Shown here piece after piece: positions 4,138-21,347 of a stretch of 42,664 bases of DNA. This DNA comes from an uncultured Spirochaetales bacterium (GTDB lineage Bacteria; Spirochaetota; Spirochaetia; DTKZ01): NCBI GenBank assembly GCA_937991975.1, contig CALKLC010000120.1:1-42664 (forward strand), read 5' to 3'. Both the position numbers and the translations under genes were made by a program. How positions within the stretch are numbered: position 1 is the first letter of the stretch; every line of letters begins with the position of its first letter. The notes under the pieces were generated by a model. The model saw nothing but the letters and a program-made list of their open reading frames with translations. It made no database searches and was not told where the DNA came from.

Positions 4138-5022
4138 TCACGGAGGGAATATACTGTATGGAAAGCGGGATGGCATGGAACTGCCTGTAGTGAGAACCTG
4201 TGACAAAGCCCCTGCGTAATCTTTTCGCAGGCTCACGATAAAGGGATACTCCTTGATTCTAGGGAATCGCTCAATATTCTGCCCTATAATCCCCATATTT
4301 CTTCGGGTTCCGGGCCCTGATAGAAGTTCCAAAACGATAGATCCCGCTTTTCCTGCCCAGACCACTAATAGATCCACAGGTTCTGCCAATTCCTTTCGAA
4401 GATTCTTTCGTATAGTTTCCTCTGAATCGTACTTAGGAATAAGAACTGTTCGTACTCCAGGGGAAGGTTCTCCGAATCCCAGTTCCCGAAAGAGAGAAAG
4501 ATCCTCCTCACTCAGTATCAATAATTTTTGATCCTTTGGGATGGTCGAGGATCTGTACTGCTCCCAGCGCTTGAGAGCCTCTTTCAGGGCAGGCGCAGGG
4601 TCGAACGTGATTCCCCGCACATTGGGATGAAGGAAAAATCCTTCGGGGGCATCCATACAGAGAAAGGTTACACCTGGGAAACGAATCTCCAACGCTTCCA
4701 GTTCCAGTGCAACATAGGGGCTAACCACTACATACGAGTAGGTGTCTTCTGTCAACAGTTCTTCCAATGCCAGCCGATCCTTTTCACGAAACGCATAGGG
4801 AACCGTCTTGATACGATACCCGGATTCTCGTTCCGTGACAGCCAGTTGGCGGAGAAACTCGTCCCCCAGAATCGGAGAGGTGAGAGAATCCAGCACCCAG
4901 AGCACCTTTGGAGCCGAACAGGATAGAAGAACCATGCAAAGAAGCACCCCCCCTACCCAACGGATGCACCGGTAGATCTTGCGCTGATACAGACTACCCG
5001 GCCACTCTATGGTACGTCTCAA
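4138..5022 (-). CDS. Predicted lipoprotein, periplasmic-binding-protein-like
   Basis: The 294-residue protein has a basic n-region, a hydrophobic stretch and a lipobox LLSC near residue 35, so it should be a lipid-anchored exported protein. The mature part alternates beta strands and helices (KVLWVLDS, YSYVVVSPY, VTFLCMD, LLVVWAGKAG, MGIIGQN), recalling two-lobed type I binding proteins of the BMP/Med class; this is a fold-level impression only. The start is probably TTG, overlapping the preceding SDR stop as TTGA, so the two are translationally coupled and the lipoprotein is the last gene of the sugar operon. It could instead serve the adjacent flagellar genes. No permease or ATPase gene accompanies it. 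Confidence 0.7.
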   Translation of the reverse strand: MRRTIEWPGSLYQRKIYRCIRWVGGVLLCMVLLSCSAPKVLWVLDSLTSPILGDEFLRQLAVTERESGYRIKTVPYAFREKDRLALEELLTEDTYSYVVVSPYVALELEALEIRFPGVTFLCMDAPEGFFLHPNVRGITFDPAPALKEALKRWEQYRSSTIPKDQKLLILSEEDLSLFRELGFGEPSPGVRTVLIPKYDSEETIRKNLRKELAEPVDLLVVWAGKAGSIVLELLSGPGTRRNMGIIGQNIERFPRIKEYPFIVSLRKDYAGALSQVLTTGSSMPSRFPYSIFPP

Positions 5023-5771
5023 TCCCGTAGGGTCCCTCCATTTACCATCATGCTCTCTCCCGTGATGAATTTCGCTCGGGGGCTGGCTAGATAGGAAGCG
5101 GCAAAGGCAACATCCTCTGGGTCTCCCAATCTCTTCAGGATGCTGTTATCGATGAACTTCTGATTCTCCTCTTTAGACACCGCAGTTGCCATGGGAGTGA
5201 CGATCCTTCCTGGGCAGATCGCGTTGGCCGTGATGTTGTCCATTCCAACTTGCTGGGCAAGATTACGGGTAAAGGCAAGGACCCCTCCCTTGGAGGCGGC
5301 GTAATGGCAGGCGGCTACCGTTCCACCATGCTTTCCTGCTTCTGAGCTGATATTGATGATGCGGCCGTACTTCTGTCTGCGCATTCCAGGAAGTACGGCT
5401 TTGCAAAAATAGAACATAGCCCGCAGGTTCACCGCCATCACCAGATCCCACTCCTCTGATGAGATTTCCTCTATCTTGTGTAGCGGATGGATCCCCGCGT
5501 TGTTCACCAGAATCTGAATACTACCAAAAGTATGCTCCACCTCTGCCACAAAAGCGTTCACTTCTCCTTCTTTTGCGATATCCACTACTTTATAAAAAAC
5601 TTTCACCCCTGTTTTCTGCTGGATTTCTTTTGCCGTTTTCTCCAGCTCTTCCTTCTGCACATCGCACAACCCTACATTGGCTCCCAGGGTAGCAAACTCT
5701 AAAGCGATTGCTTTTCCTATCCCTCGGGCAGAACCAGTAACAATAGCACTTTGACCTTTCAACGAATCCAT
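5019..5771 (-). CDS. SDR-family NAD(P)-dependent oxidoreductase
   Basis: This classical short-chain dehydrogenase of 250 residues has the cofactor motif TGSARGIGKAIA at 12-23, NNAG in the middle, a catalytic Ser in INISSEAG, and YAASKGG with the catalytic Tyr and Lys. NAICPGRIVTPM and a C-terminal GESMMVNGG follow. It resembles FabG and sugar/polyol dehydrogenases; the operon favours oxidation or reduction of a sugar or sugar acid over fatty-acid synthesis. It lies 24 nt downstream of the isomerase gene and its stop overlaps the lipoprotein start. The exact substrate cannot be read from sequence. Confidence 0.9.
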   Translation of the reverse strand: MDSLKGQSAIVTGSARGIGKAIALEFATLGANVGLCDVQKEELEKTAKEIQQKTGVKVFYKVVDIAKEGEVNAFVAEVEHTFGSIQILVNNAGIHPLHKIEEISSEEWDLVMAVNLRAMFYFCKAVLPGMRRQKYGRIINISSEAGKHGGTVAACHYAASKGGVLAFTRNLAQQVGMDNITANAICPGRIVTPMATAVSKEENQKFIDNSILKRLGDPEDVAFAASYLASPRAKFITGESMMVNGGTLRD

Positions 5772-5795: not shown

Positions 5796-6611
5796 TCAAG
5801 ATATCCGATTCAATACAGGAGCGAGAGTTTCCATGGCCGCCTGTACATCTTCGGCAAAACTCCTTTTCAGATTTCCTTCGATGGCCAGTTTTCCGTTGTA
5901 CCCACACGCATCGAGGATTCCTATGATATGCTTGAAATCGAGAGCCCCATAGCCGGGGAAAAATCGATTATTCTCCGATAGATGGAAACTGATGAAATGA
6001 TCCCGGTGAGTGATGATGGCAGCTTCCATGTTGGATTCTTCGATGTTCATGTGCCATGTATCGGGCAGGATATAGGTAGAACCTTTGTTTCTCCCTTCCA
6101 CCAGCGACCAGGTATCATCAAGGCTGTTCCCCAGAGGGGACTCGAACCGATTGATCGCTTCCACCAGGAAGGGTGTCTTCAACCGGGCTGCTTCTTCAGA
6201 TACTTCCTCGATGGATCGTTTCAAAGCCTCCCGATGGGCTTCGGAACTTTCCCCTGAAGTTCCTTTGAGAAATCCCGCAATGATCCCTGCTCCAAAATGT
6301 TTGGCAAAGGCAAGGAACTCCTTGGCCCGCCTAACCGATAGAGTGCGTTTCTTTTCGTCGGTAGAGGAAAGGGACAACCCTTCTGTTTTAGCAGTGAACC
6401 CCGTTGCGAACATGGATAACTCTAAATCGAAATCTTTGAGAAAAGATTTTAAATCTTCAGGGTCTACCGCATCAGGATTCCGAATGTTCAATTCTACCCC
6501 ATCGAATCTGAAACTCTGTAGAACCTTCATCCGTTCGATGAACTCCCTGTCCTTTCGATAATCGTCGGGTAACAGGGTCTGTAACGCAAGATAGTACCGG
6601 TATCTTCCCAT
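5796..6611 (-). CDS. Sugar phosphate isomerase/epimerase-like TIM barrel (AP-endonuclease-2 fold)
   Basis: The 271 residues fit the xylose-isomerase-like TIM barrel family that includes hydroxypyruvate isomerase, tagatose 3-epimerase and inosose enzymes. Candidate metal ligands are the Glu in FLVEAINRFE, Asp and His in LPDTWHMNIEE, the HLSENNR segment and the final Glu in KLAIEGNL. The N-terminal FDGVELNIRNP is also typical. A ketose or keto-acid epimerisation or isomerisation is the likely job. It sits 16 nt after the URO-D-like gene. Three different predicted isomerases or epimerases in one operon is notable. Confidence 0.85.
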   Translation of the reverse strand: MGRYRYYLALQTLLPDDYRKDREFIERMKVLQSFRFDGVELNIRNPDAVDPEDLKSFLKDFDLELSMFATGFTAKTEGLSLSSTDEKKRTLSVRRAKEFLAFAKHFGAGIIAGFLKGTSGESSEAHREALKRSIEEVSEEAARLKTPFLVEAINRFESPLGNSLDDTWSLVEGRNKGSTYILPDTWHMNIEESNMEAAIITHRDHFISFHLSENNRFFPGYGALDFKHIIGILDACGYNGKLAIEGNLKRSFAEDVQAAMETLAPVLNRIS

Positions 6612-6627: not shown

Positions 6628-7704
6628 CTACATTCCTACAATAGGTCGTAAGGTTTCTACTTCTTTCCAGCTGGTCACCATGATGTAGAGGTATAGCCCT
6701 CTAGGGTCCAGAGAGTCCCTCAACTTCCGTAGCTCATCCGGAGCAAAAGAGCCCCGGATCAAAAGGGGTTTCCCCGCTTCCTGCACTTGCTGCAAGTACG
6801 GAATTAGCCAGTCCAGCGGCGGCCCCCCCACATCGTTGTTTATTTCGTAACACCGAATCTCGGGAATCTGCAGCATCCTATCCAGCACGAACATACTGGT
6901 AGCGTGCAAGTGGATGAAACTACAGGAAAATCGGGCTGCCACCCGCTGATCCACCGGTTTCAGGTACTCCTCATAGAGGGTAGGAGATAGAACAGCCACC
7001 CCGTCTTCCTGCATCCGAATGATCGACCCGGGGGCCCAGAGGCTGTACTGGGCATCGAAGTACCCCCCCTGAAAAAGGGGAATCCCTTTCCAGGCTTCTT
7101 CGGTGATCCAGATGAAGAAATCCCCCATCCGTTCCAGTAACCTGTAGGCCCGCTCCCCTTCCAGCATCAGGTCGATTACAGCCTGTTCATGGCCGCGCAA
7201 GTTAATCACATAATCCAAGGGACCTGTGAGGGTTCCATGGGATACGGGGTACCTTCCCGCCGCATGCTTCACCAGCACATCGATGAACTCCATGTACTTC
7301 TGGTACCAGGGAGATTCGCGGTTCCACTCTACCGCCTCCGCTTCCTCCCAGCTAAGGTTCTGTTCTTCCGCCACTACGTTGCCCGGCAACACCCGCATGG
7401 AACTCCCCAGGATCCCCTCCCCCCAGAACACAGCCTGAGAGGGAGACGCCCCCCGAATAATATCATCCTCCATCTGTTCCCCTTCGGAAAGGAGTCTCTC
7501 CTGATCTTCCAGAAACTCCTCGGGGTGAATCATTTCCGGGGTAAGAGGAGCGTCTTTCTTCCAGGACGCACTGGCCCTGAACTCATCCAGGGGAAACCAA
7601 CTCTTGAAAGAAAACCCGACAAGCGGTCGTTTCACGGCTTCCCGTGCCCAAAACTTACGATACCCCTCGATTTTTTGGGGATCATTCCCGAACGCGTAAC
7701 CCAT
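6628..7704 (-). CDS. Uroporphyrinogen decarboxylase-like (URO-D/MtaA fold) protein
   Basis: This 358-residue protein resembles the broad URO-D superfamily, which includes haem-pathway HemE and corrinoid methyltransferases such as MtaA. Supporting segments are GTLTGPLDYVINLRG, CSFIHLHATSMFVLDRML, CYEINNDVGGPPLDWLIPYL and the closing KPLLIRGSFAPDELRKL. The haem-type N-terminal substrate motif is not evident, so it is unlikely to be HemE. Remote homologues of this kind recur in sugar-utilisation operons without known chemistry. It is separated by 8 nt from the upstream SDR. The family call is moderately firm; the reaction is unknown. Confidence 0.65.
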   Translation of the reverse strand: MGYAFGNDPQKIEGYRKFWAREAVKRPLVGFSFKSWFPLDEFRASASWKKDAPLTPEMIHPEEFLEDQERLLSEGEQMEDDIIRGASPSQAVFWGEGILGSSMRVLPGNVVAEEQNLSWEEAEAVEWNRESPWYQKYMEFIDVLVKHAAGRYPVSHGTLTGPLDYVINLRGHEQAVIDLMLEGERAYRLLERMGDFFIWITEEAWKGIPLFQGGYFDAQYSLWAPGSIIRMQEDGVAVLSPTLYEEYLKPVDQRVAARFSCSFIHLHATSMFVLDRMLQIPEIRCYEINNDVGGPPLDWLIPYLQQVQEAGKPLLIRGSFAPDELRKLRDSLDPRGLYLYIMVTSWKEVETLRPIVGM

Positions 7705-8546: not shown

Positions 8547-10289
8547 CTATAAGTCATATAAGTCATGCGCTATCTCGAGAAACCAGCGTTTCAGCCGTTC
8601 TGTGTATTCCTTCCTGCATACGGGTGAGACATCGTACAATTTATCCCGAAGGACAAACCGGTTCTGTGGATCCCGCCTCCCAACGGAGACAAAGCAATAG
8701 TAATGGAAGAGTTTCTTCGCCGGATGAGGGGTGGGATCCTTTGCCAGTTCCTCCAGACATTCCTTTGCAAAACTGGATCCTTTCTGGGCCTCTCCTTTTA
8801 CGAAGTTATACACATCCTCCCACCATTCCAGGAATCGTTCCCGCTGCACGTCGTAGAGGGTCTCGGCAAAGATCAACTGAAGCATGGGGGAGATCTTGAA
8901 ATTGATCCTTCCACGGGTGGCTCTCCCAAAGACCTTCCGTGTATCCTTCGATAGATCGTCCCCCGAATGGCAGTCGAGCATCAGGTTGTATAGAGAGGCG
9001 ATGTCAGAAATAACCTTTACCCGATGTTCCAGCCCGGACAGTCCGTCAGGGCAACGGTAATCTGTGCTTTTCTCTACCCCAAAATTCGGTGCCAGGTGGG
9101 TAACGGGCAGCCCCCGTCGTTCGATCTCGATTGCAAGGAAAACCACTTCTTCCGGTCGGGTGATACAATTACAGGTAGAGACTTCTGGGGGATTCTCGTC
9201 GATGGAAAGCTCCAGATCAAAAGGTTGGTTTCCCTTCAAGGATTTCAAATGAGCCGAGAGTTGTTCCAGAGCATCAAGAGCCTTCCAGTACTTTCCCACC
9301 AGTCTTCCGATCTCTTCTTCGGAGAAAGCGTACTTCCTACCGCCAATGGTTCTGGTCCGTTTATGGTAGAGAAGGACGTCTCTCCGTTCCCCTTCGTCGG
9401 GAATCTGCTGCGTTAGGTACTCCCACCCCATACCGCTGGATGAGTCCAAAAGGGCCGAATATCCAAGGATATCGGACACATCAACGGTAAAGAAAGTGTA
9501 ATACCTCGCGGCTCGCATCACCTTCTTGGCCCTTTTCAATCCTTCAGGGCCTCGTTTCACCTGAATGTGATCTGCATCCGCCCCATATTTGGGGAAACTT
9601 GGATCCTTCAGAATGGCAAGGATCCCCGCATGGAGGAGTCCCTCGAAGGTACTTCCCGTGTGTCCTTCAGCAATGGTACCAAAACTGAATAGGTAGTTTT
9701 CATGAGGAGCCTTTCCCTCTTTGAGATCATCCAGCAGGTTCAGTTCTCGGAGGGAATTCTGTATCGCATTCGCCGCAAACATTCCCTCTTCCATCGCCCG
9801 GATGGCTGCCGGCCAGACAAGGACCGTGTGCCGATCCCCTACTCCCAAGCGGGGGGTAGAACCCAACGCCCGAGGAGCCTTTTCAGGATTCAGTTCCATA
9901 AGGTACGTTTCCAGCACTTCCATGTCGGTAGGATAGAGAGAGAGGTTCTGTCCTCCCGGAAGAGGCTTGGTAGCCATGGGGTATCCCAGTTTTGAAGAAC
10001 CTTGCATGGGACCTATTCGCACAAAAAGGTGCTGTCCATCCGGCAAAGAGCCCAGAAACACATCAGCCCCTTGATCAGGTGCATGGGAAGCCGGATACAC
10101 CGTCAGATAGTTTCCCGAAAGGGGAGATTCTTGATTCTTCCCTGCCAGAGCTTGTAAGCGATGCCAGAATCGGTCATCCTCCTGAAACACCAGGGAAATG
10201 GCAGAATCCCGATCCCACGTGGCGGTATCCAGTACTCCAGGATTCCGTGCAGGGTCTATCTCCAGTTTGCCGAACGAGTAAGTCCCCAT
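8547..10289 (-). CDS. UxaE-family ketouronate (tagaturonate/fructuronate) epimerase-like protein
   Basis: Thermotoga maritima UxaE interconverts D-tagaturonate and D-fructuronate. From memory of that family this protein shares its landmarks in order: GVGDRH near 150, YGADADHI near 236, FTVDVSDIL near 267, LSIDE near 360, HLAPNFGVEKSTDYRCPD near 400 and LDCHSGDDLSKD near 437. At 580 residues it is clearly longer than the roughly 480 I recall for UxaE, with extra sequence at the N-terminus and in the middle. The HSG motif also differs after the Gly. It may therefore epimerise another ketose acid. It lies between the LarA-like epimerase and an SDR, 12 nt from each. Confidence 0.78.
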   Translation of the reverse strand: MGTYSFGKLEIDPARNPGVLDTATWDRDSAISLVFQEDDRFWHRLQALAGKNQESPLSGNYLTVYPASHAPDQGADVFLGSLPDGQHLFVRIGPMQGSSKLGYPMATKPLPGGQNLSLYPTDMEVLETYLMELNPEKAPRALGSTPRLGVGDRHTVLVWPAAIRAMEEGMFAANAIQNSLRELNLLDDLKEGKAPHENYLFSFGTIAEGHTGSTFEGLLHAGILAILKDPSFPKYGADADHIQVKRGPEGLKRAKKVMRAARYYTFFTVDVSDILGYSALLDSSSGMGWEYLTQQIPDEGERRDVLLYHKRTRTIGGRKYAFSEEEIGRLVGKYWKALDALEQLSAHLKSLKGNQPFDLELSIDENPPEVSTCNCITRPEEVVFLAIEIERRGLPVTHLAPNFGVEKSTDYRCPDGLSGLEHRVKVISDIASLYNLMLDCHSGDDLSKDTRKVFGRATRGRINFKISPMLQLIFAETLYDVQRERFLEWWEDVYNFVKGEAQKGSSFAKECLEELAKDPTPHPAKKLFHYYCFVSVGRRDPQNRFVLRDKLYDVSPVCRKEYTERLKRWFLEIAHDLYDL

Positions 10290-10301
10290 GGGTATCCCTC
10301 C

Positions 10302-11579
10302 TTAGGGTTCATAGTATGGGATCGTAAGGGGCCCTTCGGGCAACACACATATCTTGATGGCAGGGCCCAGTTCCCGAATTTTTTCCTCCACAAGCTTTTC
10401 GATGGAAGGACAGTATTCCAGATGGCATTTGCGCACCGTCTCTTTCGACAGATGGGTGGTATAAAGATAAATCCGAGCTTTCTTGACCAAAAGAGCAAGA
10501 ATATGCGCCTGCCATTGATCATCCATTCTGAATCCTTCTGAACGGATCCGTGTCAATAACGCATCCGGATCTTTCGCTTCCTGTAAGAGCCGTCCAAAGG
10601 AGCCATGTTCGGGTACCCCATCCCAACACTCAGCTGCCACCACAATCGTTCCCCCTGGTTTGGTAATCTTGGCAGCAGCACTCATCCCCTTCACTGCCTG
10701 GTACAGGTTTAAATCCAGAGGGTATCCTGCGTTGGAGGTAATTACCAGATCATACAGCGTATCGGTTCGTACCATGGAAGTGCTTCGTACAAACTCGGTC
10801 CCCTTCCGGTAGGCATGGATCCAATCCCCGGCAAAGGATGCGGTTATGTGCTTTTCCTTGTTCAAAGTCACGTTTACCAGAAAATTTGGTTTCACAAGGG
10901 AAGCTGCCTCATCGATCTCCTCTCGTAGTGGGTTCCCCTCGAGGATCCCCCAGTTTGCGGCTGGAGAATCGATATTCCGAGCATCATGATTCCGCATCAC
11001 TGTGTCCAGATGGGCAAGGCCAGGCATCACAGCCTTTCCCCCACCGGAGAACCCCGCAAAAAAGTGGGGTTCGATGAATCCTGTAAGGATTTTGAAAGAA
11101 CAGTGGAGAAACTCCCGATGGATCTTCACGATCGTTCCTCTCCGGGTTGTTCCCACCCCCTCGTGCTGATCCACGGCCCGGGCATCGTTCTGCACGATCC
11201 GATAGGTTCGGACGATATCCGCTCCCAGCATGGACTCCAGTTCTTCCCGGGTATTCAACCTGTGAGTTCCGGTAGAATTGAACAGGGTGATCCGATGGGT
11301 GGGAACGCCTGAACGTTCCAGTTCCTGGAGAATGGCTGGAATAAGGATATGGTTGGGAGTAGGTCTCGTGATATCGCTGAACACGATTCCCACCGAATCG
11401 GTGGCTCCCACAAGCTCCCGAAGGGGTTTTGTTCCGATCGGATTTCTCAAAGAACCGATAATCGTCCCATGAGGATCTTTAGCAGCAGACACATAGGAGG
11501 GCTCGATGATTCGAACAGGGAGATCATCCGGTAGCGTAAGGGGTAGCCCCTCTTTCCCATAGGCTAAATGTACTACCAT
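10302..11579 (-). CDS. LarA-family nickel-pincer hydroxyacid racemase/epimerase
   Basis: LarA enzymes use a nickel pincer nucleotide tethered to a lysine to racemise or epimerise 2-hydroxyacids. All key residues of the Lactobacillus enzyme appear here, offset by two: GTHRLNT (His106), FIEPHFF (His172), GGGKAVMPG (Lys182) and RNHDA (His198), plus the FSDITRP substrate/cofactor loop near 68. Length (425) is normal. The superfamily includes lactate, malate and phenyllactate racemases and a D-gluconate 2-epimerase; a sugar-acid epimerase suits this operon best. The cofactor genes larB, larC and larE are not in the window. It lies 25 nt after the transaldolase gene. Confidence 0.88.
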   Translation of the reverse strand: MVVHLAYGKEGLPLTLPDDLPVRIIEPSYVSAAKDPHGTIIGSLRNPIGTKPLRELVGATDSVGIVFSDITRPTPNHILIPAILQELERSGVPTHRITLFNSTGTHRLNTREELESMLGADIVRTYRIVQNDARAVDQHEGVGTTRRGTIVKIHREFLHCSFKILTGFIEPHFFAGFSGGGKAVMPGLAHLDTVMRNHDARNIDSPAANWGILEGNPLREEIDEAASLVKPNFLVNVTLNKEKHITASFAGDWIHAYRKGTEFVRSTSMVRTDTLYDLVITSNAGYPLDLNLYQAVKGMSAAAKITKPGGTIVVAAECWDGVPEHGSFGRLLQEAKDPDALLTRIRSEGFRMDDQWQAHILALLVKKARIYLYTTHLSKETVRKCHLEYCPSIEKLVEEKIRELGPAIKICVLPEGPLTIPYYEP

Positions 11580-11604: not shown

Positions 11605-13326
11605 TCAACCTTCTGCCACACCTTTCATCCGTTCCCGTACCATCTGGCTCATCTCCTGGTACATACCAATGAATTGTGTCAATGTTTCATGAACGGGTTT
11701 CCATGCTGCCACCGCCTCTGCATCTTTCTTATCCAGGGTAAGCACCCTCTCCGGTTTTCCCATCGAACTATTTTCTGGAACCCACCAGGCTTGCCGGAAG
11801 ATCTCGCTCTTCAAGAGGATCTCCACCTCCTTGTCAGGGGTTTTCCCATGGAGGGCATCGATCACGAGGGGTCTTGGATGAACATCGTACGCTCTTCGGA
11901 CGTTGGGGAAAATCGTAATGAGGGGGATCCCCCAGAGTTCCGAAATATCAGGGATCCAATCATCATAGATCCGCAGGGAGGCAATCATAATTTTTACCTT
12001 GTCCGGATCAACTCCCAGCCCTCCTTTTTCCGGGGCGGAATAAAGCCGGTACGCTGCTTTTCGAGCCACCTCCACTCCCGCCCACCGAGCAGCCTCCACC
12101 CCTCCCTCTACCCCTTTTGCCTTCAACTCATCCCGCACAGGGAACGCCAGCCTTCCGTTCATAATAGCAATGTAGGAAACAAGAGCATTCCCTTTCTGTA
12201 ATACTTCGGCAAAGGGGATGGATTGGAACAGACTGAAGGTAAGAGTCACAGTTACCCCGATCCCCTTAGAGGTGAGTTTTTTGGCTGCCTCCAGTCCTGC
12301 CGCTGTGGAAGGCACCTTGATCACCACATTAGGTACCCCTCCCAGCCGTTTCTCCAACTCTCTGTAGATGAAGACTGCCTCCTTCACCATTTTCTCGCTA
12401 TCCAGGTGGGCTTTTGGATTCACCTGCAGACTCACGTACCCCTGTTTTCCCTCACTCCAGAGGAAGATCGGCCGCAGTAACCGACAGTTCCTCTCTACTA
12501 CCGAGGTAGTAACCAATGCATTGATCCGCTCGATTGCCTCGGAAAGACTTTGTTCCGGCCCTTCCAGGATGGATGCAAGTTTTTTCTTTGAATAAGTCGA
12601 ACGAATCACTTCCTCCACCCGCTTGTTCCAGTATACCGGATCTATGTCCCATGCAAGTTTGATTAGAACTGGATTGGTAGTCACGAAGGTCCCGCCAATC
12701 CGCATCATAGAATCGAGAAACTCTGCATAATCGTTCCCGATTTCGGTATGGAGACTCCCCGCCAATGCAGATCTGGCCGCAATGCGAAGGTTCGATTTGT
12801 TATACTCATGGATGAGATTTTCAATATATTCTTGAATCCCTTTGCCCCACAGAGAGTTAACCATCCGGGTGACTTCCTCATCCGCCGCAATTCCCTCTGC
12901 CTTCAATCGGGCACGGGTTGTCTTTTTGATTTCTTCCTCGAATGCAACGGCCTCATCCGGAAAGGCCTCTAAAAGGGATCCGAGAGTCTCTAAGGTTCGT
13001 ACTGTATAGGATTGTATTCCTTCTTCTCCCAGCATAGGCAAGAGTTTCCGCTCTGCAGGGAAAGAACGAAGATCCAATGAGAGGTTCAGGAGGAAGCGGA
13101 GAATGATCGATCGATCGACTTCGGAACTCTTTACGGCTTTCCCCGTAAATTTCTTCTCTAGAAACGCGAACCGTTTCTTGAAGGTATCACTGGTAGAGAA
13201 GTATAGGAGTGCCCCTCGGACAGCCTCCTCATGTCCCTGCACAAGGGAATCCCACAAGTTTTCCAGTGTGGCCTTCTCCCACCTCTTCTTCTCTTCTCGA
13301 ATTCGTTCCTTCAGTTTCAGATTCAT
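11605..13326 (-). CDS. Divergent transaldolase with extra N-terminal helical domain
   Basis: The C-terminal two thirds is a transaldolase-type barrel: FVTTNPVLIK (about 213), VSLQVNP, then NVVIKVPST with the Schiff-base Lys at about 337, GVTVTLTFSLFQ, and KIMIASLRIYDDW where ordinary enzymes have ASFR. The usual VGR is NGR. The first 200 or so residues are charged, mostly helical and of no recognised family; typical transaldolases are 215-320 residues against 573 here. The start is the ATG at 13326, because GGAGGAG lies inside the longer ORF of the track. These changes suggest a non-standard acceptor or donor sugar. It follows the GntR gene by 18 nt. Confidence 0.85.
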   Translation of the reverse strand: MNLKLKERIREEKKRWEKATLENLWDSLVQGHEEAVRGALLYFSTSDTFKKRFAFLEKKFTGKAVKSSEVDRSIILRFLLNLSLDLRSFPAERKLLPMLGEEGIQSYTVRTLETLGSLLEAFPDEAVAFEEEIKKTTRARLKAEGIAADEEVTRMVNSLWGKGIQEYIENLIHEYNKSNLRIAARSALAGSLHTEIGNDYAEFLDSMMRIGGTFVTTNPVLIKLAWDIDPVYWNKRVEEVIRSTYSKKKLASILEGPEQSLSEAIERINALVTTSVVERNCRLLRPIFLWSEGKQGYVSLQVNPKAHLDSEKMVKEAVFIYRELEKRLGGVPNVVIKVPSTAAGLEAAKKLTSKGIGVTVTLTFSLFQSIPFAEVLQKGNALVSYIAIMNGRLAFPVRDELKAKGVEGGVEAARWAGVEVARKAAYRLYSAPEKGGLGVDPDKVKIMIASLRIYDDWIPDISELWGIPLITIFPNVRRAYDVHPRPLVIDALHGKTPDKEVEILLKSEIFRQAWWVPENSSMGKPERVLTLDKKDAEAVAAWKPVHETLTQFIGMYQEMSQMVRERMKGVAEG

Positions 13327-13344
13327 AGGTTTCTCCTCCATTCA

Positions 13345-14016
13345 TTACTCATGAATAAACCCTTCCAGCTTCAGTACTGCATCCCGGGAGGCCAGGATAT
13401 GGGCAGACATGACCTGCTCGATTCTTTCCTCATCCTGGGACAGAAAGGCCTGGATGATGGCAATATGTTCCTGATTGGTAGATTCTATCCGTTTCGGAAG
13501 CCTCCCTGCAAGGATACGCATACGCTGGTTCTGGTCCATTACCACCCGGTACATTTCTATTAGATGTTTATTCTGAGTACACTCCACGATGTAATCGTGC
13601 AGATCCCGATCATACTGGAACCAATCTTTGAACGATATAGAACCCATATCCATCGTGGTGAACAGCTTCAGGAATTGTTCCAGGACTCCTCGATCCATCC
13701 TCCGACTGGAAATGCGGGCGATCTTGGGCTCTAAAAGAAGTCGGATCTGGTAGATCTCGTAGATGTCCTGTACAGAAATAGGTGAGACAAAGGTACCTTG
13801 CCTGGGATAGATATCGATAAGATGTTCCCGTTGGAGACGGAGCAAGGCCTCCCGAATGGGGGTTCGAGACGTACCGAACTCCGAAGCCAATGAATCCTCT
13901 GAAACTACCGATCCCGGAAGCATTTCACAGGAAATGATCCGTTCCTTGATTCTTCGGTAGACCTGTTCCTGCAGAGCTTCCTTCTTCATGCTCGAAGTCC
14001 CGATCGGTGTTTTCAT
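13345..14016 (-). CDS. GntR-family transcriptional regulator, FCD (FadR) subfamily
   Basis: This 223-residue regulator has an N-terminal winged helix (QEQVYRRIKERI, then SEDSLASEFGTSRTPIREALLRLQREHLI) and a C-terminal FCD ligand domain. The FCD metal ligands are visible as Asp and His in YDRDLHDYI, His in QEHIAIIQAF and His in MSAHILASRD, so it probably senses a metal-chelated carboxylate such as a sugar acid. The track ORF starts far too early; the ATG at 14016 overlaps the stop of the dehydrogenase gene as TAATG with AAGGA before it. In Thermotoga an FCD regulator (TM0439) sits beside uxaE. It probably controls this operon. Confidence 0.92.
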   Translation of the reverse strand: MKTPIGTSSMKKEALQEQVYRRIKERIISCEMLPGSVVSEDSLASEFGTSRTPIREALLRLQREHLIDIYPRQGTFVSPISVQDIYEIYQIRLLLEPKIARISSRRMDRGVLEQFLKLFTTMDMGSISFKDWFQYDRDLHDYIVECTQNKHLIEMYRVVMDQNQRMRILAGRLPKRIESTNQEHIAIIQAFLSQDEERIEQVMSAHILASRDAVLKLEGFIHE

Positions 14017-15053
14017 TATTCCTTCGGATCCAGCACGATTTTCAATCCGCGTTTTGCTTCGAATAGATCGAAGGCCTTCTTCCATTCTGCCAGGGGAAGG
14101 ATATCGGATACGAGAGGTTTCAACTGTACCTGCCCCTCGGCCACCATATGCAACGCCCGTTCCCAGGAAGTCCATCGGGATCCAAGAGATCCGGTAACCT
14201 TCACCTCTTTATAGCAGATCCGTTCGAAATCTAAGGATATGGGCTTTCCGAATAGTCCAATTTGTGTCAACTGTCCCCGTTTCCTCACAGAAAGAAGGGC
14301 GTCCTGCAGGGCCTTCTCGCTTCCCGAACACTCCAATACAACGTCTACCCCAACGCCCCGCGTGATCTCTTCCACCAATTCCCCCAGACTTTGCTTCGTG
14401 ACATCCACCGTCCACTCTGCACCGAGGGCTTTTGCTTTTTCAAGCCTTTCCGAATCTACAGGAGTACCCGTGACCAGTACGCGGGCTCCATGCGCTTTCG
14501 CTACCTGGAGGGTAGCCAAACCGATGGCTCCCGGCCCCGATACAAGGACTGTATCCCCCGCCTGGATATGGGTAAGTTCCACCACAGCATGCACAATACA
14601 GGCAAGAGGTTCCATCAGAGCGCCTTCAAGGAAGGAAATAGAATCTGGCAGCGGATGGAGGCGAGCTGCAGGAACGATCGTGTAGGGAGCGAAAGCACCG
14701 TTGTACCAGTAGCCGAGAGTCTTACGCTGGTTACAGAGGTTGTAGTACCCTTCCCTGCAATGGATACAGACTCCACAGTATGAGTACGCTGTTTCTGAGA
14801 CCACCCGATCCCCTGGCTTCCAGTGTTCCACACCAAGTCCAACCTCTACGATTGTTCCGCTGAACTCATGTCCCGTGATTACGGGCGGACGCACAGGAAT
14901 GGCAATGTCACTATGGTAGATATGAAGGTCTGAACCGCAGATTCCTGTGTACTGGACTGCGATCTTTACCTCTCCCGGGCCTGGTTTTGGTTCCGGAACT
15001 TCCCGCAGTTCCATATTCCCGGGCCCAGCCGCATACTTCACTAACCCCTTCAT
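14016..15053 (-). CDS. Zinc-dependent alcohol dehydrogenase (polyol dehydrogenase-like, MDR family)
   Basis: This 345-residue medium-chain dehydrogenase has the catalytic zinc ligands GICGSDLH and GHEFSG, structural-zinc cysteines CGVCIHCREGYYNLC, and the Rossmann motif VSGPGAIGLATLQ. It resembles sorbitol, threonine and galactitol dehydrogenases that oxidise a secondary alcohol with NAD(P). The track ORF begins 80 residues too early. The ATG at 15053 overlaps the transketolase stop as TAATG, preceded by AAAGGAGG. It probably makes or consumes the keto form of the operon substrate. Confidence 0.93.
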   Translation of the reverse strand: MKGLVKYAAGPGNMELREVPEPKPGPGEVKIAVQYTGICGSDLHIYHSDIAIPVRPPVITGHEFSGTIVEVGLGVEHWKPGDRVVSETAYSYCGVCIHCREGYYNLCNQRKTLGYWYNGAFAPYTIVPAARLHPLPDSISFLEGALMEPLACIVHAVVELTHIQAGDTVLVSGPGAIGLATLQVAKAHGARVLVTGTPVDSERLEKAKALGAEWTVDVTKQSLGELVEEITRGVGVDVVLECSGSEKALQDALLSVRKRGQLTQIGLFGKPISLDFERICYKEVKVTGSLGSRWTSWERALHMVAEGQVQLKPLVSDILPLAEWKKAFDLFEAKRGLKIVLDPKE

Positions 15054-16009
15054 TACAACCCTCCTTTCTTTTTCAGAACCTCCTCCGCAGCCTTCACGAT
15101 ATGCTGGGAAGTCAACCCATACTTTTCTAGAAGAGCCTGATAATCCCCTGACTCGGCAAAGGTGTCCCGTACTCCCACGAACTCGATGGGTACTGGATAA
15201 AGACGTCCTACTGCCTCGGCTGCCGCACCTCCCAGGCCTCCGTGGATAGAATGCTCTTCTGCCACCACAATTCCGCCCGTTTCTTTCGCACATCTCTCGA
15301 GGAGTTCCGTGTCCAGGGGTTTGATGGTATGGATGTTTACCACTCTCGCGGACACTCCCTGTGCCTCGAGTATCTGAGCAGCCTCCATTGCTCGGTGTAC
15401 CATGTAGCCAGTTGCTACGAGGGTAATGTCTTTTCCGCTTCGAAGGAGTTTCCCTTTCCCCAGGACAAAAGGCTGGCTATCATTTTCTGGAATGTCCGGG
15501 CACTCGTTTCTGTGGATCCTAATGTATACCGGGCCTTTATACTGCACCGCCGCTTCTGTAGCCGCCTTGACTTCAGCCCCATCAGCCGGGCAAATGACCA
15601 GCATGTTGGGAAGGGCACGCATAAAAGCGATATCCAGGATGGAATGATGACTCGCTCCATCGTAGGAGTCGGAAAGCCCTGCATAGGTTCCTGCCAGTTT
15701 CACATTCAGTTTCGTATACGCTATAAGACTACGAATGGGATCTCCACATCGGAGGACCATGAAACAGGCAAAGGTGTTCACGAAGGGAATCAGCCCTGTG
15801 GTTGAAATACCCGCTGCCATGGCTGCCATATTCATTTCTGCAATCCCCACATTGAAGAAACGCTCAGGGAACGCTTCCCCAAACAGGATGGTCCTTGTGG
15901 AGGTTGCCACATCCGCATCGAATACAACGATATGGGGGTTGGTCTTTCCCAGTTCCACTAGAGTTTCACCATACACTTGCCTCATGGCCTTCCCTGTTGC
16001 TCCTGCCAT
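15053..16009 (-). CDS. Transketolase, C-terminal subunit
   Basis: This half of a split transketolase holds the pyrimidine-binding and C-terminal domains: VFDADVATSTRT, FFNVGIAEMNMAAMAAG with the TPP-activating Glu, LAGTYAGLSDSYDGASHHSILDIAFMRALPNM, and later VVAEEHSIHGGLGGAAAEAV. The subunit is 318 residues. The ATG at 16009 overlaps the stop of the N-terminal subunit as TAATG, so both halves are made together. Split transketolases are common in dedicated sugar pathways (for example apulose-phosphate and sulfo-sugar routes). Two-carbon unit transfer from a ketose is expected; the donor is not known. Confidence 0.93.
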   Translation of the reverse strand: MAGATGKAMRQVYGETLVELGKTNPHIVVFDADVATSTRTILFGEAFPERFFNVGIAEMNMAAMAAGISTTGLIPFVNTFACFMVLRCGDPIRSLIAYTKLNVKLAGTYAGLSDSYDGASHHSILDIAFMRALPNMLVICPADGAEVKAATEAAVQYKGPVYIRIHRNECPDIPENDSQPFVLGKGKLLRSGKDITLVATGYMVHRAMEAAQILEAQGVSARVVNIHTIKPLDTELLERCAKETGGIVVAEEHSIHGGLGGAAAEAVGRLYPVPIEFVGVRDTFAESGDYQALLEKYGLTSQHIVKAAEEVLKKKGGL

Positions 16010-16842
16010 TACCTTCCCCCTTCCAGTTCCTGAATCGCAGCTTCGTATTCCGCCTTGCTGATGGGTTTTCCATGCCACGTATGTTTCCCTTCCATGAAAG
16101 AAACCCCCTTCCCTTTTACTGTATGGGCAATAATGAGGGTGGGTTTCCCTTTCACCTGATGAGCCTCCTGAATAGCATCGTAAATTTCTTCCACCTTATG
16201 ACCGTTTACCTCGAAGGTATTCCAGCCAAAGGAACTCCACTTTCCTTTTACATCCCCCAAAGGCATGATTTGATCCACTGTCCCATCCAGTTGCACCCCA
16301 TTCTTGTCGAGAATCGCAACTACATTATCCACACCATACTTAGCCCCGGCCATGGCCGCTTCCCATACGATCCCTTCCTGAATCTCCCCATCCCCTAAGA
16401 GAACATACGTATAGAAAGGTTTCCTTTGGAGTCTGGCTCCAAGACCCATCCCTAAAGCGGCAGAAAGCCCCAGACCCAGAGGGCCTGTGGAGAGTTCTAC
16501 CCCCGGGGTCTTCAGCGCGCAGGGATGACCCTGCAGCCTGCTGTTGAGTTGCCTCAGGGTTTTAAGCTCTTCCTTTGGAAAGAACCCCTTTTCAGCCAGA
16601 GCGATATAGAGCATAGGAGCTGCGTGTCCTTTGGCCAGGACGAACCTGTCCCTCTCTTCCCAGTAAGGATTCTTCGGATCCACCTTCATTACTTCAAAAT
16701 ATAGGGTGGTTATGATCTCGGTGGCGGATAAAGACCCTCCTGGATGTCCTGTTTGCACAGAATAAAGAGTGTCGAGGAGAGTTCTACGGAACTGTTTGCA
16801 GAGCCCCTCCAGGACGGCTTTCCGTTCCTTGGATAATCCCAT
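16009..16842 (-). CDS. Transketolase, N-terminal (TPP-binding) subunit
   Basis: First gene of the operon, 277 residues. It has the TPP diphosphate motif starting LGDGEIQEG and closing at LDKNGVQLDG, GHPGGSLSATEI near the N-terminus, KGHAAPMLYIALAEKG, and STGPLGLGLSAALGMGLG. These are the standard transketolase substrate and cofactor residues. It pairs with the next gene to form the active enzyme. The ATG follows GGAGG at good spacing. A strong promoter and a dyad lie in the 120 nt before it. Confidence 0.94.
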   Translation of the reverse strand: MGLSKERKAVLEGLCKQFRRTLLDTLYSVQTGHPGGSLSATEIITTLYFEVMKVDPKNPYWEERDRFVLAKGHAAPMLYIALAEKGFFPKEELKTLRQLNSRLQGHPCALKTPGVELSTGPLGLGLSAALGMGLGARLQRKPFYTYVLLGDGEIQEGIVWEAAMAGAKYGVDNVVAILDKNGVQLDGTVDQIMPLGDVKGKWSSFGWNTFEVNGHKVEEIYDAIQEAHQVKGKPTLIIAHTVKGKGVSFMEGKHTWHGKPISKAEYEAAIQELEGGR

Positions 16843-16947: not shown

Positions 16948-16976
16948 ATTCTATCGAAGCATCTACCCCCTGTCAA
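16948..16976 (-). promoter_or_regulatory. Promoter of the twelve-gene sugar operon
   Basis: The minus strand shows TTGACA, 17 nt, TAGAAT: a near-perfect sigma70 promoter. Its upstream half overlaps the last codons of the PLP-enzyme gene. The expected leader is about 100 nt, unusually long for this window and containing the TTGACTT/AAGTCAA dyad. Confidence 0.8.
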
Positions 16977-18246
16977 GTAAGACACGCGGTGAAAAGATAG
17001 GCTTCCCGCTGCCAGGGTTTTGCACAGCGAGATTATGCATGGAAAGAGCCTTCAGGGCCGATTCCACATCCTTCAGGCCGTTCCCTGTAAGTAGTACTAC
17101 TTCTGGACCTTGAGGGTCCTTCCTCGACCCCCGAAGGTCCTTTCCTGCAACCAGAAGATCCTTGAGATACCCTGCAAAGGCTGTGGCGCCAGCAGGTTCA
17201 GAGAAGAGGCCTGTCCAGGAAGCGAGATTCTTCTGTGCTTCCAGGATCTCGCTGTCCGAAACAATGATTATACGCCCGCCGTAAGCTTTTAATTTTTGGA
17301 CTGCAAGATATCCGTTTCGGGGGATTTCTACAGAGATGGAATCTGCCACTGTATGGGCCCCCATCCCTCTGTCGAAAAGCCCCCTCTCTAAGGCCCGCGC
17401 AATTGCCGATGAACCCTCCGCCTGCACCCCAATGACTTCTGGTATTTCCTCTATTAATCCCAATCTTAAAAGATCCTCAAACCCGCGATAGACACCAGCA
17501 AGGATCACTCCATCCCCCACAGAAAGGTATACCCGTTTCGGCGCCCTTCCCAGGTCGCGAAAAATCTCCAGCGCAACGGTTTTCTTCCCTTCGATCGTAA
17601 GGGGTTGCTGGGCAGTATTCCGAGAAAGAACCTCTTTGTGGGACCTGCAGTACTCTAAGGATGCATCATACGCATCATCGTAGGTACCCTCTACCAGGGT
17701 CACTTCTGCTCCATACAGGAGGGACTGTACCCGTTTGGCCAGAGGAGCAGATGCAGGCATAAAGATCCGGACCGATAATCCTGCCGCGGCTCCCACCCCT
17801 GCCATGGAGGAAGCTGCATTACCCGTGGATGCTACCGCAATGGCTGAACGTCCATGCTTTTTTGCAAAGGCAGCTACTAGAAACGAAGCCCGGTCCTTCA
17901 ATGACCCTGTAGGGTTCGCTCCATCGTCCTTCAGGTATACCTCCTCGATTCCCGTCTGTTTCCACAACCTCGCAGGTTTCCAGAGGGGGGTATTCCCTAC
18001 CGGAATAGAAGGAAAGAACTCTCGTTCAACAGGAAGGAGGTCGAACACATCCCACTTTCCTGCCTTAGAATCGATCCATTCCCGCAGGAGAGGGTAGTTC
18101 CAATCAACCTCTAAGACTCCACGTAGAGGCTCTTTCGGATCCTGGGCAGCATGGCAGGCGGTACACACAAGCATCTCAGGGGAAGGATCATACTCCTTTC
18201 CACAGAGGCTGCACCGGTAGTGGAAGAGGGGCTCTTTCCTACCCAT
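16963..18246 (-). CDS. PLP-dependent fold-type II enzyme, threonine-synthase-like
   Basis: This 427-residue protein has an N-terminal zinc-ribbon-like part (CSLCGKEY, then CTACH), PVGNTPLWKP, the PLP lysine in NPTGSLKDRAS (about residue 119), the phosphate-region ASTGNAASS and a SVGDGVILAG loop. Threonine synthases usually read GSFKDRG and have a different glycine loop, so the classical reaction (O-phosphohomoserine to threonine) is not assured. The start overlaps the YgeY-type gene by 8 nt. In E. coli ygeY sits beside ygeX, another fold-type II enzyme (diaminopropionate ammonia-lyase), so this one may fill that place. Ammonia-lyase on a diamino or ureido acid is an inference. Confidence 0.8.
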   Translation of the reverse strand: MGRKEPLFHYRCSLCGKEYDPSPEMLVCTACHAAQDPKEPLRGVLEVDWNYPLLREWIDSKAGKWDVFDLLPVEREFFPSIPVGNTPLWKPARLWKQTGIEEVYLKDDGANPTGSLKDRASFLVAAFAKKHGRSAIAVASTGNAASSMAGVGAAAGLSVRIFMPASAPLAKRVQSLLYGAEVTLVEGTYDDAYDASLEYCRSHKEVLSRNTAQQPLTIEGKKTVALEIFRDLGRAPKRVYLSVGDGVILAGVYRGFEDLLRLGLIEEIPEVIGVQAEGSSAIARALERGLFDRGMGAHTVADSISVEIPRNGYLAVQKLKAYGGRIIIVSDSEILEAQKNLASWTGLFSEPAGATAFAGYLKDLLVAGKDLRGSRKDPQGPEVVLLTGNGLKDVESALKALSMHNLAVQNPGSGKPIFSPRVLLDRG

Positions 18247-19459
18247 GGGTTTGACCCAGCCTGTGGGATTCGTCTAGCACATAAGGAAGGTACGCGTAGA
18301 AAGCACTGGCTATTTCCAGATCCTTCACACGGGTGACTTCGTTGGGGGCATGGGCCTGCGCCTCGTCCCCCGGCCCGAAACCGATGGTGGGAATCCGATA
18401 CCTTCCACACACAGCGGTTCCGTTGGTGGAAAACGTCCACTTATCCACCACAGGCTCTGTACCAAAAAGCCCCTTGTACGCGTGCCTACCGGCTTGCACA
18501 AAAGGATGATCCGACGGAAGTTTCCAGGTGGGGAAGTAAAGTTCCTGGCCATAGGGAGTCTTTTTCCATCCAGGTTTGTCATAGTATGGAACGACTACCT
18601 CTTCAGCCAGACTTCCAAGGGCATCCTTCACCTGCTGCACTGCCAGTTCCATCGTTTCTCCCCAGGTAAGTCTGCGATCGATATAGAGGGAAGCCACATC
18701 GGGTACTGCACATTGGGAAGGTCCAAATGCTTTCAGCTGGGATACTACGATCGTTCCCTTCCCTAGAAACCGATCCTCATCGGGTTGCAATTCTTCATTC
18801 AACCCTTCGAGGGCCAGGGCAGCCCTGGCTGCTTTGTAAGCTGCATTTTCTCCCCGTTCCGGTGCCGAACCATGGGCAGAGACTCCTTTGATATGAACCT
18901 CCATCTCCATCCGGCCCCGGTGCCCCCGATACAACCGACAACTGGTAGGCTCGGTACTGATAAAGTAATCGGGAATAAACTGTTCTTCCTCGATCAGGTA
19001 CTTCCAGCACATTCCATCGCAATCTTCCTCAAGGACGGTAAAGGTAAAATACACGGAGTACTTCCCCCGGTAATCAAGATCTTTCAATATCCGACCCGCA
19101 GTCAGCATGGCCGCTGCTCCCCCCTTCTGGTCCGAGGCTCCCCGGCCGTAAACCAACCCATCCCGGATGGCCCCCGAAAAGGGATCGTCCTTCCATTGAC
19201 TGCGGTCTCCCACCCCAACAGTATCGATATGGGCGTCGATGACGAGTTTCTTTTGCCCTGACCCTATGCGAGCAACTAGACTCCCTAACCCGTCGATCCG
19301 CACCTCATCGAACTCGAGAGTTCTACATATGTGCTCCAGTTCCCGAATAACCCCTTCCTCTGCCCCTGAAAAGGAGGGGATACGGATGATTCGGGAAAGG
19401 TTCTCTGCTGTCATGGATGCATACGTATTTGCCAGTTTTTTAATTCTAACCGGATCCAT
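18239..19459 (-). CDS. ygeY: YgeY-type M20 hydrolase (selenium-metabolism-linked family)
   Basis: This 406-residue M20-family dinuclear zinc hydrolase aligns from memory along its whole length with E. coli YgeY: DAHIDTVGVGD (metal ligands), YGRGASDQKGG, TVLEEDCDGMCWKYL (catalytic and metal Glu), STEPTSCRLYRGHRGRMEM, GSAPERGENA, IDRRLTWGET, DKWTFSTNGT and GFGPGDEAQAHAPNE with the final His. It should hydrolyse an amide or ureido bond of a small amino-acid derivative. AGGAG lies inside the preceding gene, whose stop is 2 nt upstream of this ATG. YgeY homologues travel with YgeW and YgeX in anaerobic purine-related clusters. Confidence 0.92.
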   Translation of the reverse strand: MDPVRIKKLANTYASMTAENLSRIIRIPSFSGAEEGVIRELEHICRTLEFDEVRIDGLGSLVARIGSGQKKLVIDAHIDTVGVGDRSQWKDDPFSGAIRDGLVYGRGASDQKGGAAAMLTAGRILKDLDYRGKYSVYFTFTVLEEDCDGMCWKYLIEEEQFIPDYFISTEPTSCRLYRGHRGRMEMEVHIKGVSAHGSAPERGENAAYKAARAALALEGLNEELQPDEDRFLGKGTIVVSQLKAFGPSQCAVPDVASLYIDRRLTWGETMELAVQQVKDALGSLAEEVVVPYYDKPGWKKTPYGQELYFPTWKLPSDHPFVQAGRHAYKGLFGTEPVVDKWTFSTNGTAVCGRYRIPTIGFGPGDEAQAHAPNEVTRVKDLEIASAFYAYLPYVLDESHRLGQTHG

Positions 19460-19461
19460 CT

Positions 19462-20028
19462 TTATACTCCTGCATTAGGTATAGAATATTGATCTGCCCA
19501 CCGGGCTAGAACGTACAGATAATCGGACATGCGATTCAAATACCGCTGACACGGAGCCAGTTCCTGCAACCCCCTGCTTCGAATAAGAGCTACGAGAGAT
19601 CGTTCCGCTCTGCGGCAGATGGTTCTACAGATATCCAGTCGGGCAGATAGGGCACAGCCTCCCGGCAATACGAACCGTTTGGGAACTTCAATCGATTCCA
19701 GCACTCTCTTTTCTACGGTTTCCAGAACTGTAATATCCTGATCCGTCAAAAGATCGAGGGCATGGAAGCGGGGGTCGGTTGGAGGAGTGGCAACCTCGGC
19801 CCCGATCCGAAAGAGGTTCAACTGAAGGGATTCCAGTTCGTCCTTGAAGAAGAGTCCCTTCCCTTCTGCTTTTACCCATCCGAGAAAAGAGTTCAGTTCA
19901 TCCAGGTCCCCCAGGACTTGGAATACAAGATCGTCTTTGGGCCTGCGTTCTCCATTGTATAGGGTGGACAATCCCTCATCTCCTCCCCGCGTGGTAATTT
20001 GATCGAAGGGAATTTTTCTACGTATCAT
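19462..20028 (-). CDS. Cob(I)alamin adenosyltransferase, PduO type
   Basis: This enzyme transfers the adenosyl group of ATP to cob(I)alamin, making adenosylcobalamin. The 188 residues show the PduO/MMAB ATP-binding start TTRGGDEGLSTLYNGERRPK, DLDELNSFLGW, and the C-terminal CRTICRRAERSLVAL and YLNRMSDYLYVLARW. It is the first gene of an operon with ygeY and the PLP enzyme. No B12-dependent enzyme is visible nearby, so its place in this cluster is odd. An adenosylcobalamin-dependent mutase or eliminase elsewhere in the genome could be its client. Confidence 0.93.
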   Translation of the reverse strand: MIRRKIPFDQITTRGGDEGLSTLYNGERRPKDDLVFQVLGDLDELNSFLGWVKAEGKGLFFKDELESLQLNLFRIGAEVATPPTDPRFHALDLLTDQDITVLETVEKRVLESIEVPKRFVLPGGCALSARLDICRTICRRAERSLVALIRSRGLQELAPCQRYLNRMSDYLYVLARWADQYSIPNAGV

Positions 20029-20153
20029 ATCGAACCTTCATCCCACAGTACTCTAAAACAGTGAAAAAAGCAATTTCCTTCCTCTTTACTCAGCTTCCCA
20101 TTCCATATTACAAATGAAGAATTAAATCCTGAGGAAAAAATGAGGGTAGTTGT

Positions 20154-21347
20154 ATGAGCGAGACGATCATCCCCAAGCTGCTTAAAGATCTGGAGACTAT
20201 TCCCTTCGACATGCACGAGAAGGATTTTCTTCTTACCTGGGAATTGAGCAAGGAAAACCTCCTTGCCATCCTGAAAACAGGACTCCTGTTGAAAGAGCTC
20301 CACCGAACAGGCTGTTCCATGCGGATTTTCGACACCGGGTTGGCTGTTTCCATCTTTAGGGACAACTCCACCCGGACCCGATTCAGCTTTGCCTCGGCAG
20401 TCAATGCCCTGGGCCTCACCCTCCAGGAACTGGATGAACGAACCTCCCAGATTGCCCATGGAGAGACCGAACGGGAAACCGCAGTGATGATATCCTTTCT
20501 GACGCAGGCAGTTGGGATTCGGGACGATATCTTCCTGGGGGAAGGGGACCGGTACCAGAGGAACTTCATCCAGGCCATTAAGGAGGCCTATCTGGAAGGA
20601 ATTCTCCATCAACGACCTGTCCTGGTAAATCTTCAGTCCGACATCGACCATCCTACCCAGAGCATGTCAGACCTGGCCAAACTGATAGACTATTTCGGAG
20701 GGGTAGAAAACCTCAAAGGTAAGAAGATTGCCGTTACCTGGGCGTATTCTCCTTCCTATGGGAAACCCCTCTCAGTGCCTCAGGGAGTAATAGGTCTTTT
20801 AACCCGATTCGGAATGGAGGTCACCCTTGCTCACCCAGAAGGGTACGAGTTATTACCCGATGTGGTTGCTCTGGCCAAAAAGCAAGCGGAGGCCAGTGGG
20901 GGGGCTTTTTCTATAACGAATAGAATGGATGAAGCTTTTACCAATGCTGATGCCGTGTACCCCAAATCCTGGGCTCCCTACCAGGTGATGGTGCGTCGAA
21001 CAGAGCTTTTAAAATCGGGGAATACGACTTCGCTGAAGGATCTGGAAAAAGAATGTCTCGCCAATAATGCAAAGTACAAGGAATGGGAATGTACGGAAGA
21101 CAAAATGAAGCTCACCAGGAACGGAAAGGGTCTATACATGCATTGTCTCCCAGCAGATATCAGTGGGGTGAGTTGTAAAGAAGGGGAAGTGGCGGCCTCT
21201 GTGTTCGACGCGTACCGAAAGGATCTATACCATCAGGCAAGTTTCAAGCCATTCCTCATCGCTGCTATCATTCTCCTATCACGCACAAAGGATCCACTCT
21301 CTACCCTGAAGAGGCTCTCGAACGAAGATAAACGGTTGCTCTTTTGA
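20154..21347 (+). CDS. ygeW: Knotted carbamoyltransferase YgeW
   Basis: The 397 residues match remembered E. coli YgeW nearly end to end: HEKDFLLTWE, FRDNSTRTRFSFASA (carbamoyl-phosphate loop STRTR), SQIAHGETERETA, NLQSDIDHPTQSM, TWAYSPSYGKPLSVPQG, YPKSWAPYQVM, and YMHCLPADISGVSCKEGEV. This aspartate/ornithine-carbamoyltransferase-like family has a knotted fold and probably forms or phosphorolyses a ureido bond (carbamoyl phosphate exchange); its true substrate is not settled. It is divergent from the pduO-ygeY-PLP operon across 125 nt. The ATG has a GAGG-containing leader. A strong terminator follows. Confidence 0.94.
   Translation: MSETIIPKLLKDLETIPFDMHEKDFLLTWELSKENLLAILKTGLLLKELHRTGCSMRIFDTGLAVSIFRDNSTRTRFSFASAVNALGLTLQELDERTSQIAHGETERETAVMISFLTQAVGIRDDIFLGEGDRYQRNFIQAIKEAYLEGILHQRPVLVNLQSDIDHPTQSMSDLAKLIDYFGGVENLKGKKIAVTWAYSPSYGKPLSVPQGVIGLLTRFGMEVTLAHPEGYELLPDVVALAKKQAEASGGAFSITNRMDEAFTNADAVYPKSWAPYQVMVRRTELLKSGNTTSLKDLEKECLANNAKYKEWECTEDKMKLTRNGKGLYMHCLPADISGVSCKEGEVAASVFDAYRKDLYHQASFKPFLIAAIILLSRTKDPLSTLKRLSNEDKRLLF

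Follow-up and report, generated by a model that had tools for sequence, protein, structure and literature searches.

By sequence and gene neighbourhood, the 580-residue UxaE-like protein (UxaEL) encoded in the window, a stretch of 42,664 nucleotides of spirochaete DNA analysed as a whole, is a member of a separate long clade of the UxaE superfamily, and its conserved partner is a transaldolase-family gene, not the adjacent larA. The operon around it is read, at a probability of about 0.45, as a non-phosphorylated breakdown route for a six-carbon ketose or 6-oxidised ketose, leading from UxaEL through the large transaldolase-family protein TAL578 and dehydrogenases to LarA.

Gene content of the operon

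UxaEL and LarA are encoded in a minus-strand gene run from 16842 to about 5019 (Table 1), in a genome assembly (G000) of 222 contigs that is 79% complete. The starts of three genes are estimates from orthologues, giving 246 residues for the GntR/FCD regulator, 345 for the Zn-dependent alcohol dehydrogenase and 319 for the C-terminal half of the transketolase. The ORF ends leave a gap of 12 nt between the LarA and UxaEL genes (10290-10301), as described in the original prediction. This gene order is repeated in G330, G393, G394 and G395, from the same genus and family, and in locus L053 the two genes form a divergent pair, so the pairing is not due to chance. The 273-residue SDR is the next gene after UxaEL in most spirochaete loci. 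No transporter was identified within the window operon.

Table 1. Genes of the operon in the window.
Product	Coordinates	Strand	Evidence and remarks
Split transketolase, N-terminal half	16009..16842	-	PF00456 1.9e-61
Split transketolase, C-terminal half	15053..16012	-	PF02779, PF02780; ORF reaches 16078
Zn-dependent alcohol dehydrogenase, threonine-DH/IolM-like	14016..15053	-	PF08240, PF00107; ORF reaches 15293
GntR/FCD regulator	13345..14085	-	PF07729, PF00392; ORF reaches 14175
TAL578, large transaldolase-family protein	11605..13341	-	PF00923 1.2e-30; Schiff-base Lys342
LarA, 425 aa, lactate/glycerate-type	10302..11579	-	NCBIfam LarA (NF033504) 483 bits, cut-off 460; active-site residues
UxaEL, UxaE-superfamily long-clade protein, 580 aa, predicted metal-dependent C4 ketose epimerase	8547..10289	-	PF16257 3e-24
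SDR oxidoreductase, 273 aa	7713..8534	-	Best NCBIfam match L-iditol 2-dehydrogenase, under cut-off
358-aa protein, weakly URO-D-like	6628..7704	-	PF01208 E=0.0018, under cut-off
Sugar isomerase/epimerase TIM barrel, IolO-like	5796..6611	-	PF01261 2.8e-27; NF041099 169 bits, cut-off 300
SDR oxidoreductase, 250 aa	5019..5771	-	PF13561 7.3e-65

Flagellar genes neighbour the operon in the window; they and the named relatives assign the window to a spirochaete. Beside it, at 16963-21347, lie genes for a PALP enzyme, an M20 peptidase and a cobalamin adenosyltransferase, together with a carbamoyltransferase-family gene on the plus strand.

UxaEL and its transaldolase partner

UxaEL matched PF16257 with 86 bits (curated cut-off 27.1) over residues 211-467, corresponding to positions 120-357 only of the 475 in the profile, and none of the NCBIfam profiles. 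Solved UxaE chains count 490-507 residues and spirochaete UxaE ORFs about 470-548, which makes UxaEL roughly 70-90 residues longer, close to the 100 originally predicted. Twenty-two relatives, 44-88% identical, were found in genome contigs from spirochaetes, Chloroflexota, Planctomycetota, Verrucomicrobiota, Kiritimatiellota and Omnitrophota, and one contig labelled Accumulibacter; loci on the same contigs as named genomes (L049 = G393, L050 = G330, L051 = G395, L054 = G394) were counted once. In the tree, 24 long proteins from several phyla formed one side of a branch with an SH-aLRT of 99. Since this long clade is sister to the UxaE clade, UxaEL was not filed as UxaE proper; by this topology it is a superfamily member in a separate, monophyletic clade. 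The earlier suggestion that larger UxaE members form a group of their own is thereby borne out, with fixed residues of its own as well. The relative on the contig labelled Accumulibacter (Pseudomonadota; L052) is 63% identical to UxaEL and has spirochaetes as its kin in the tree; mis-binning or transfer may explain the label, and the contig is possibly misplaced.

The long members were compared with 23 ordinary spirochaete UxaE proteins. Both groups share a core of G149, G151, R153, Q177, R181, D240, H241, T268, D270, E360, D364, E365, K407, H441 and K465. Fixed or nearly fixed differences were located at positions 178, 213, 266, 402, 404, 406, 439, 444, 467, 468 and 471, among them S213/R, N402/R and D444/S (UxaEL/UxaE). 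The predicted alteration after the HSG motif was confirmed as HSGDD in UxaEL against HSGSD in UxaE, with D in all long members and S in the UxaE rows. At the basic positions R213, K243 and R402 of UxaE, nearly all long members carry S, Q and N (Q243 in most), which hints that a carboxylate is perhaps no longer bound.

The AlphaFold2 model of UxaEL (pLDDT 91.1, pTM 0.91) gave UxaE and tagatose 4-epimerase structures as top Foldseek matches. UxaE, the tagaturonate-fructuronate epimerase (PF16257; PDB 6il9, 9lhw), has the same fold and conserved core; UxaEL differs from it in its length, its clade, about a dozen fixed switches and its coupling to transaldolase genes rather than UxaC. The best PDB match by sequence (7.9e-21) was 9kcs from a Thermoprotei archaeon, named 'tagatose 4-epimerase' by its depositors, which also had the best TM-score against the model (0.77 by target, rmsd 3.2). 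Both proteins contain HTG(S/T) and APN-x-G-x-EK and lack the basic residues of UxaE, with T, T and N at these places in 9kcs. Unlike UxaEL, 9kcs is about 80 residues shorter, has HSGS instead of HSGD, and is only about 24% identical. It was placed on the long-clade side of the tree, a position that is unsure because its row is partial and its branch long.

A transaldolase-family gene adjoins the UxaEL gene or lies within two genes of it in 18 of the 23 loci. In all ten of L061-L070, from Planctomycetota, Verrucomicrobiota, Kiritimatiellota, Omnitrophota, Chloroflexota and one spirochaete, it is a 224-residue transaldolase/FSA-family gene directly downstream. In L011, L049, L050, L051 and L056-L059 a larger transaldolase is found just before UxaEL or one to two genes off, and UxaEL is thus linked with two different transaldolase types. 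No neighbouring transaldolase was present in L013, L052, L053, L055 and L060; a split transketolase is present in two of these (L053 and L055). TAL578 scored 107 bits against PF00923 (cut-off 27), its Schiff-base lysine K342 is invariant in the family alignment (A2), and its model (pLDDT 79.5) matched transaldolases in all top Foldseek hits. In the small type the alignment showed the Schiff-base lysine to be kept, with the Arg of the GR(L/M)DD motif replaced by Pro. Judged by these neighbourhoods, the conserved partner of UxaEL is the transaldolase-family gene.

The original prediction had made two epimerases in series the core of the system, and gene content contradicts this. The operon of the sister genus g169 contains LarA, transketolase, SDR and IolO-like genes; UxaEL and transaldolase are missing from the locus, and UxaEL from all four genomes, so LarA is not tied to UxaEL. 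Conversely, most UxaEL loci are without LarA. LarA was accordingly rejected as a necessary partner.

Ldh_2-family dehydrogenase and fused E1-type 2-oxoacid dehydrogenase genes were also seen near UxaEL in L055, L067, L069 and L070, and E2 genes in L055, L067 and L070, which belong to different phyla.

A proposed pathway

Transaldolases and transketolases use (3S,4R) ketoses, and UxaE-type enzymes invert C4; a C4-epimerase ahead of such enzymes is therefore chemically sensible. We infer the direction, the substrates and the order of the steps as follows. UxaEL would invert C4 to give a (3S,4R) ketose accepted by transaldolases or transketolases. TAL578, perhaps together with the split transketolase, would cleave off or transfer a C3 (or C2) unit, leaving a three-carbon aldehyde such as glyceraldehyde, lactaldehyde or tartronate semialdehyde. 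The dehydrogenases would turn this aldehyde into a 2-hydroxy acid, and LarA would interconvert D- and L-glycerate or lactate for entry into central metabolism, with its nickel-pincer cofactor (NPN) either imported or obtained by some unrecognised means. The presence in the genome of a MOFRL glycerate kinase-family gene was counted in favour of the pathway. The broader generalisation, by which several phyla share an undescribed non-phosphorylated ketose pathway with a dedicated long C4-epimerase feeding a transaldolase, ending in some spirochaetes in an NPN racemase with foreign cofactor, is unlikely.

The proposed logic resembles the breakdown of sulfosugars by sulfo-TAL, in which a ketose is set up before a transaldolase removes a C3 unit, and both transaldolase types had BmSF-TAL among their matches in the PDB. 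Membership of that system is not claimed: there is no sign of a sulfonate substrate here, and a C4 epimerase is added. LguG is a 5-keto-L-gluconate 4-epimerase, from a system without a transaldolase (PMC12632266).

Alternatively, the substrate of UxaEL may be a ketouronate, either tagaturonate/fructuronate or a 5-keto-hexonate isomer; the transaldolase would then free tartronate semialdehyde, to be reduced to glycerate and racemised by LarA. UxaB-like genes (tagaturonate reductase family) stand beside UxaEL in the spirochaete loci L056, L057, L059, L060 and L013; they fit a ketouronate better than a neutral ketose and speak against our main reading. An MR/MLE dehydratase family gene, a DHDPS-family aldolase and a TRAP transporter in spirochaete loci point the same way, as do the IolO-like and IolM-like genes of the window operon. 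Against it stands the loss of the three basic residues in the long members and in 9kcs. A second PF16257 protein also argues against it: on contig C38 of the same genome (L105, 11259-13946), a UxaC glucuronate isomerase gene is followed by one for a short (415 residues), divergent protein scoring 193.6 bits, which suggests that a gene other than that of UxaEL performs the usual tagaturonate function. On balance, a ketouronate substrate appears rather doubtful. Simple redundancy of UxaEL with UxaE was rejected given the protein on C38, though that protein is itself divergent. Contig C38 also carries a weak LarA-family gene at 4151-5440. A literature search on 9kcs, on a transaldolase/tartronate semialdehyde route for uronates and on the carboxylate residues of UxaE returned nothing useful.

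LarA, the nickel-pincer cofactor and implications

LarA contains the Lar_N (2.4e-62) and LarA_C (1.4e-29) domains. The catalytic residues His106, His172, Lys182 and His198 are all present, as originally noted, along with Arg72, Gln294 and Lys297, so that the complete LarA1 reference set (R75, H108, H174, K184, H200, Q295, K298) is matched. The tested catalytic and NPN-binding residues are kept in every full-length orthologue. At the specificity positions (F173, F174, W356 and Q357 in the window LarA) all full-length orthologues have F,F,W,Q. In the residue code for positions 175, 176, 358 and 359, lactate racemases carry F,F,W,E/Q and gluconate epimerases E,V,A,H, and the Q at the fourth place was proposed to explain the glycerate preference of LarAH43 (PMC11770544). 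By this four-residue code the window LarA is one of the lactate/glycerate racemase group (LarA1, LarAH43, LarAH2/SAR), with which it also shares the catalytic residues and the NF033504 match over cut-off. It is unlike them in its place in a sugar-degradation operon and in the lack of larB, larC and larE from the genome as assembled.

No LarC was found in G000 (79% complete), G330 (98%), G393 (97%), G394, G395 or G396 (93%), and searches for LarB and LarE gave sub-threshold matches only. The genus and its nearest kin carry three to six LarA-family genes per genome. In G397, of the same family, larB, larC and larE were detected in one cluster, which shows that the search works. LarA could thus be present as apoenzyme, and it might not serve as an NPN racemase in this organism at all, being a relic or having another role because the cofactor cannot be made. 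This is quite improbable, since the conserved catalytic and NPN-binding residues would not be expected of a relic. Furthermore, 31 of 60 relatives matched Lar_N strongly (E < 1e-40); 17 of these had no LarC match, as did 12 of the 23 that were at least 90% complete. One of these LarC-negative genomes, G350, is a one-contig assembly with a strong LarA. Since LarC is missing from roughly half of the spirochaetes examined that have a strong LarA match, absence of the genes does not on its own show the enzyme to be inactive; it is as much a pointer to cofactor uptake or an unrecognised route as to loss of function. Uptake of NPN from outside the cell is a guess. The original prediction had named a search for larB, larC and larE as a point on which it could fail, and none was found in the window's genus; as the tally shows, absence of LarC is common among LarA-bearing spirochaetes.

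An aldonate 2-epimerase role for LarA, in series with UxaEL within a single pathway for hydroxy and keto acids, is very improbable: adjacency is kept in genus g1 and G395 and the LarA superfamily does include gluconate 2-epimerases (PMC7583248), but the signature is not E,V,A,H, for which reason the assignment as D-gluconate 2-epimerase (GntE) was rejected, and the two genes occur apart. Overall, the interpretation first given to this DNA was partly supported.

The operon looks like a route that sets the shape of a sugar, cuts it and tidies up a three-carbon acid, in a genome that apparently lacks the means to produce its own nickel cofactor. If true, the coupling of a C4-epimerase clade to an aldol-cleaving enzyme would provide a biological role for relatives of tagatose 4-epimerase, and C4-epimerases of this kind are sought for rare-sugar production. 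NPN racemase genes without cofactor-synthesis genes in near-complete genomes would make the sharing of cofactors between microbes testable.
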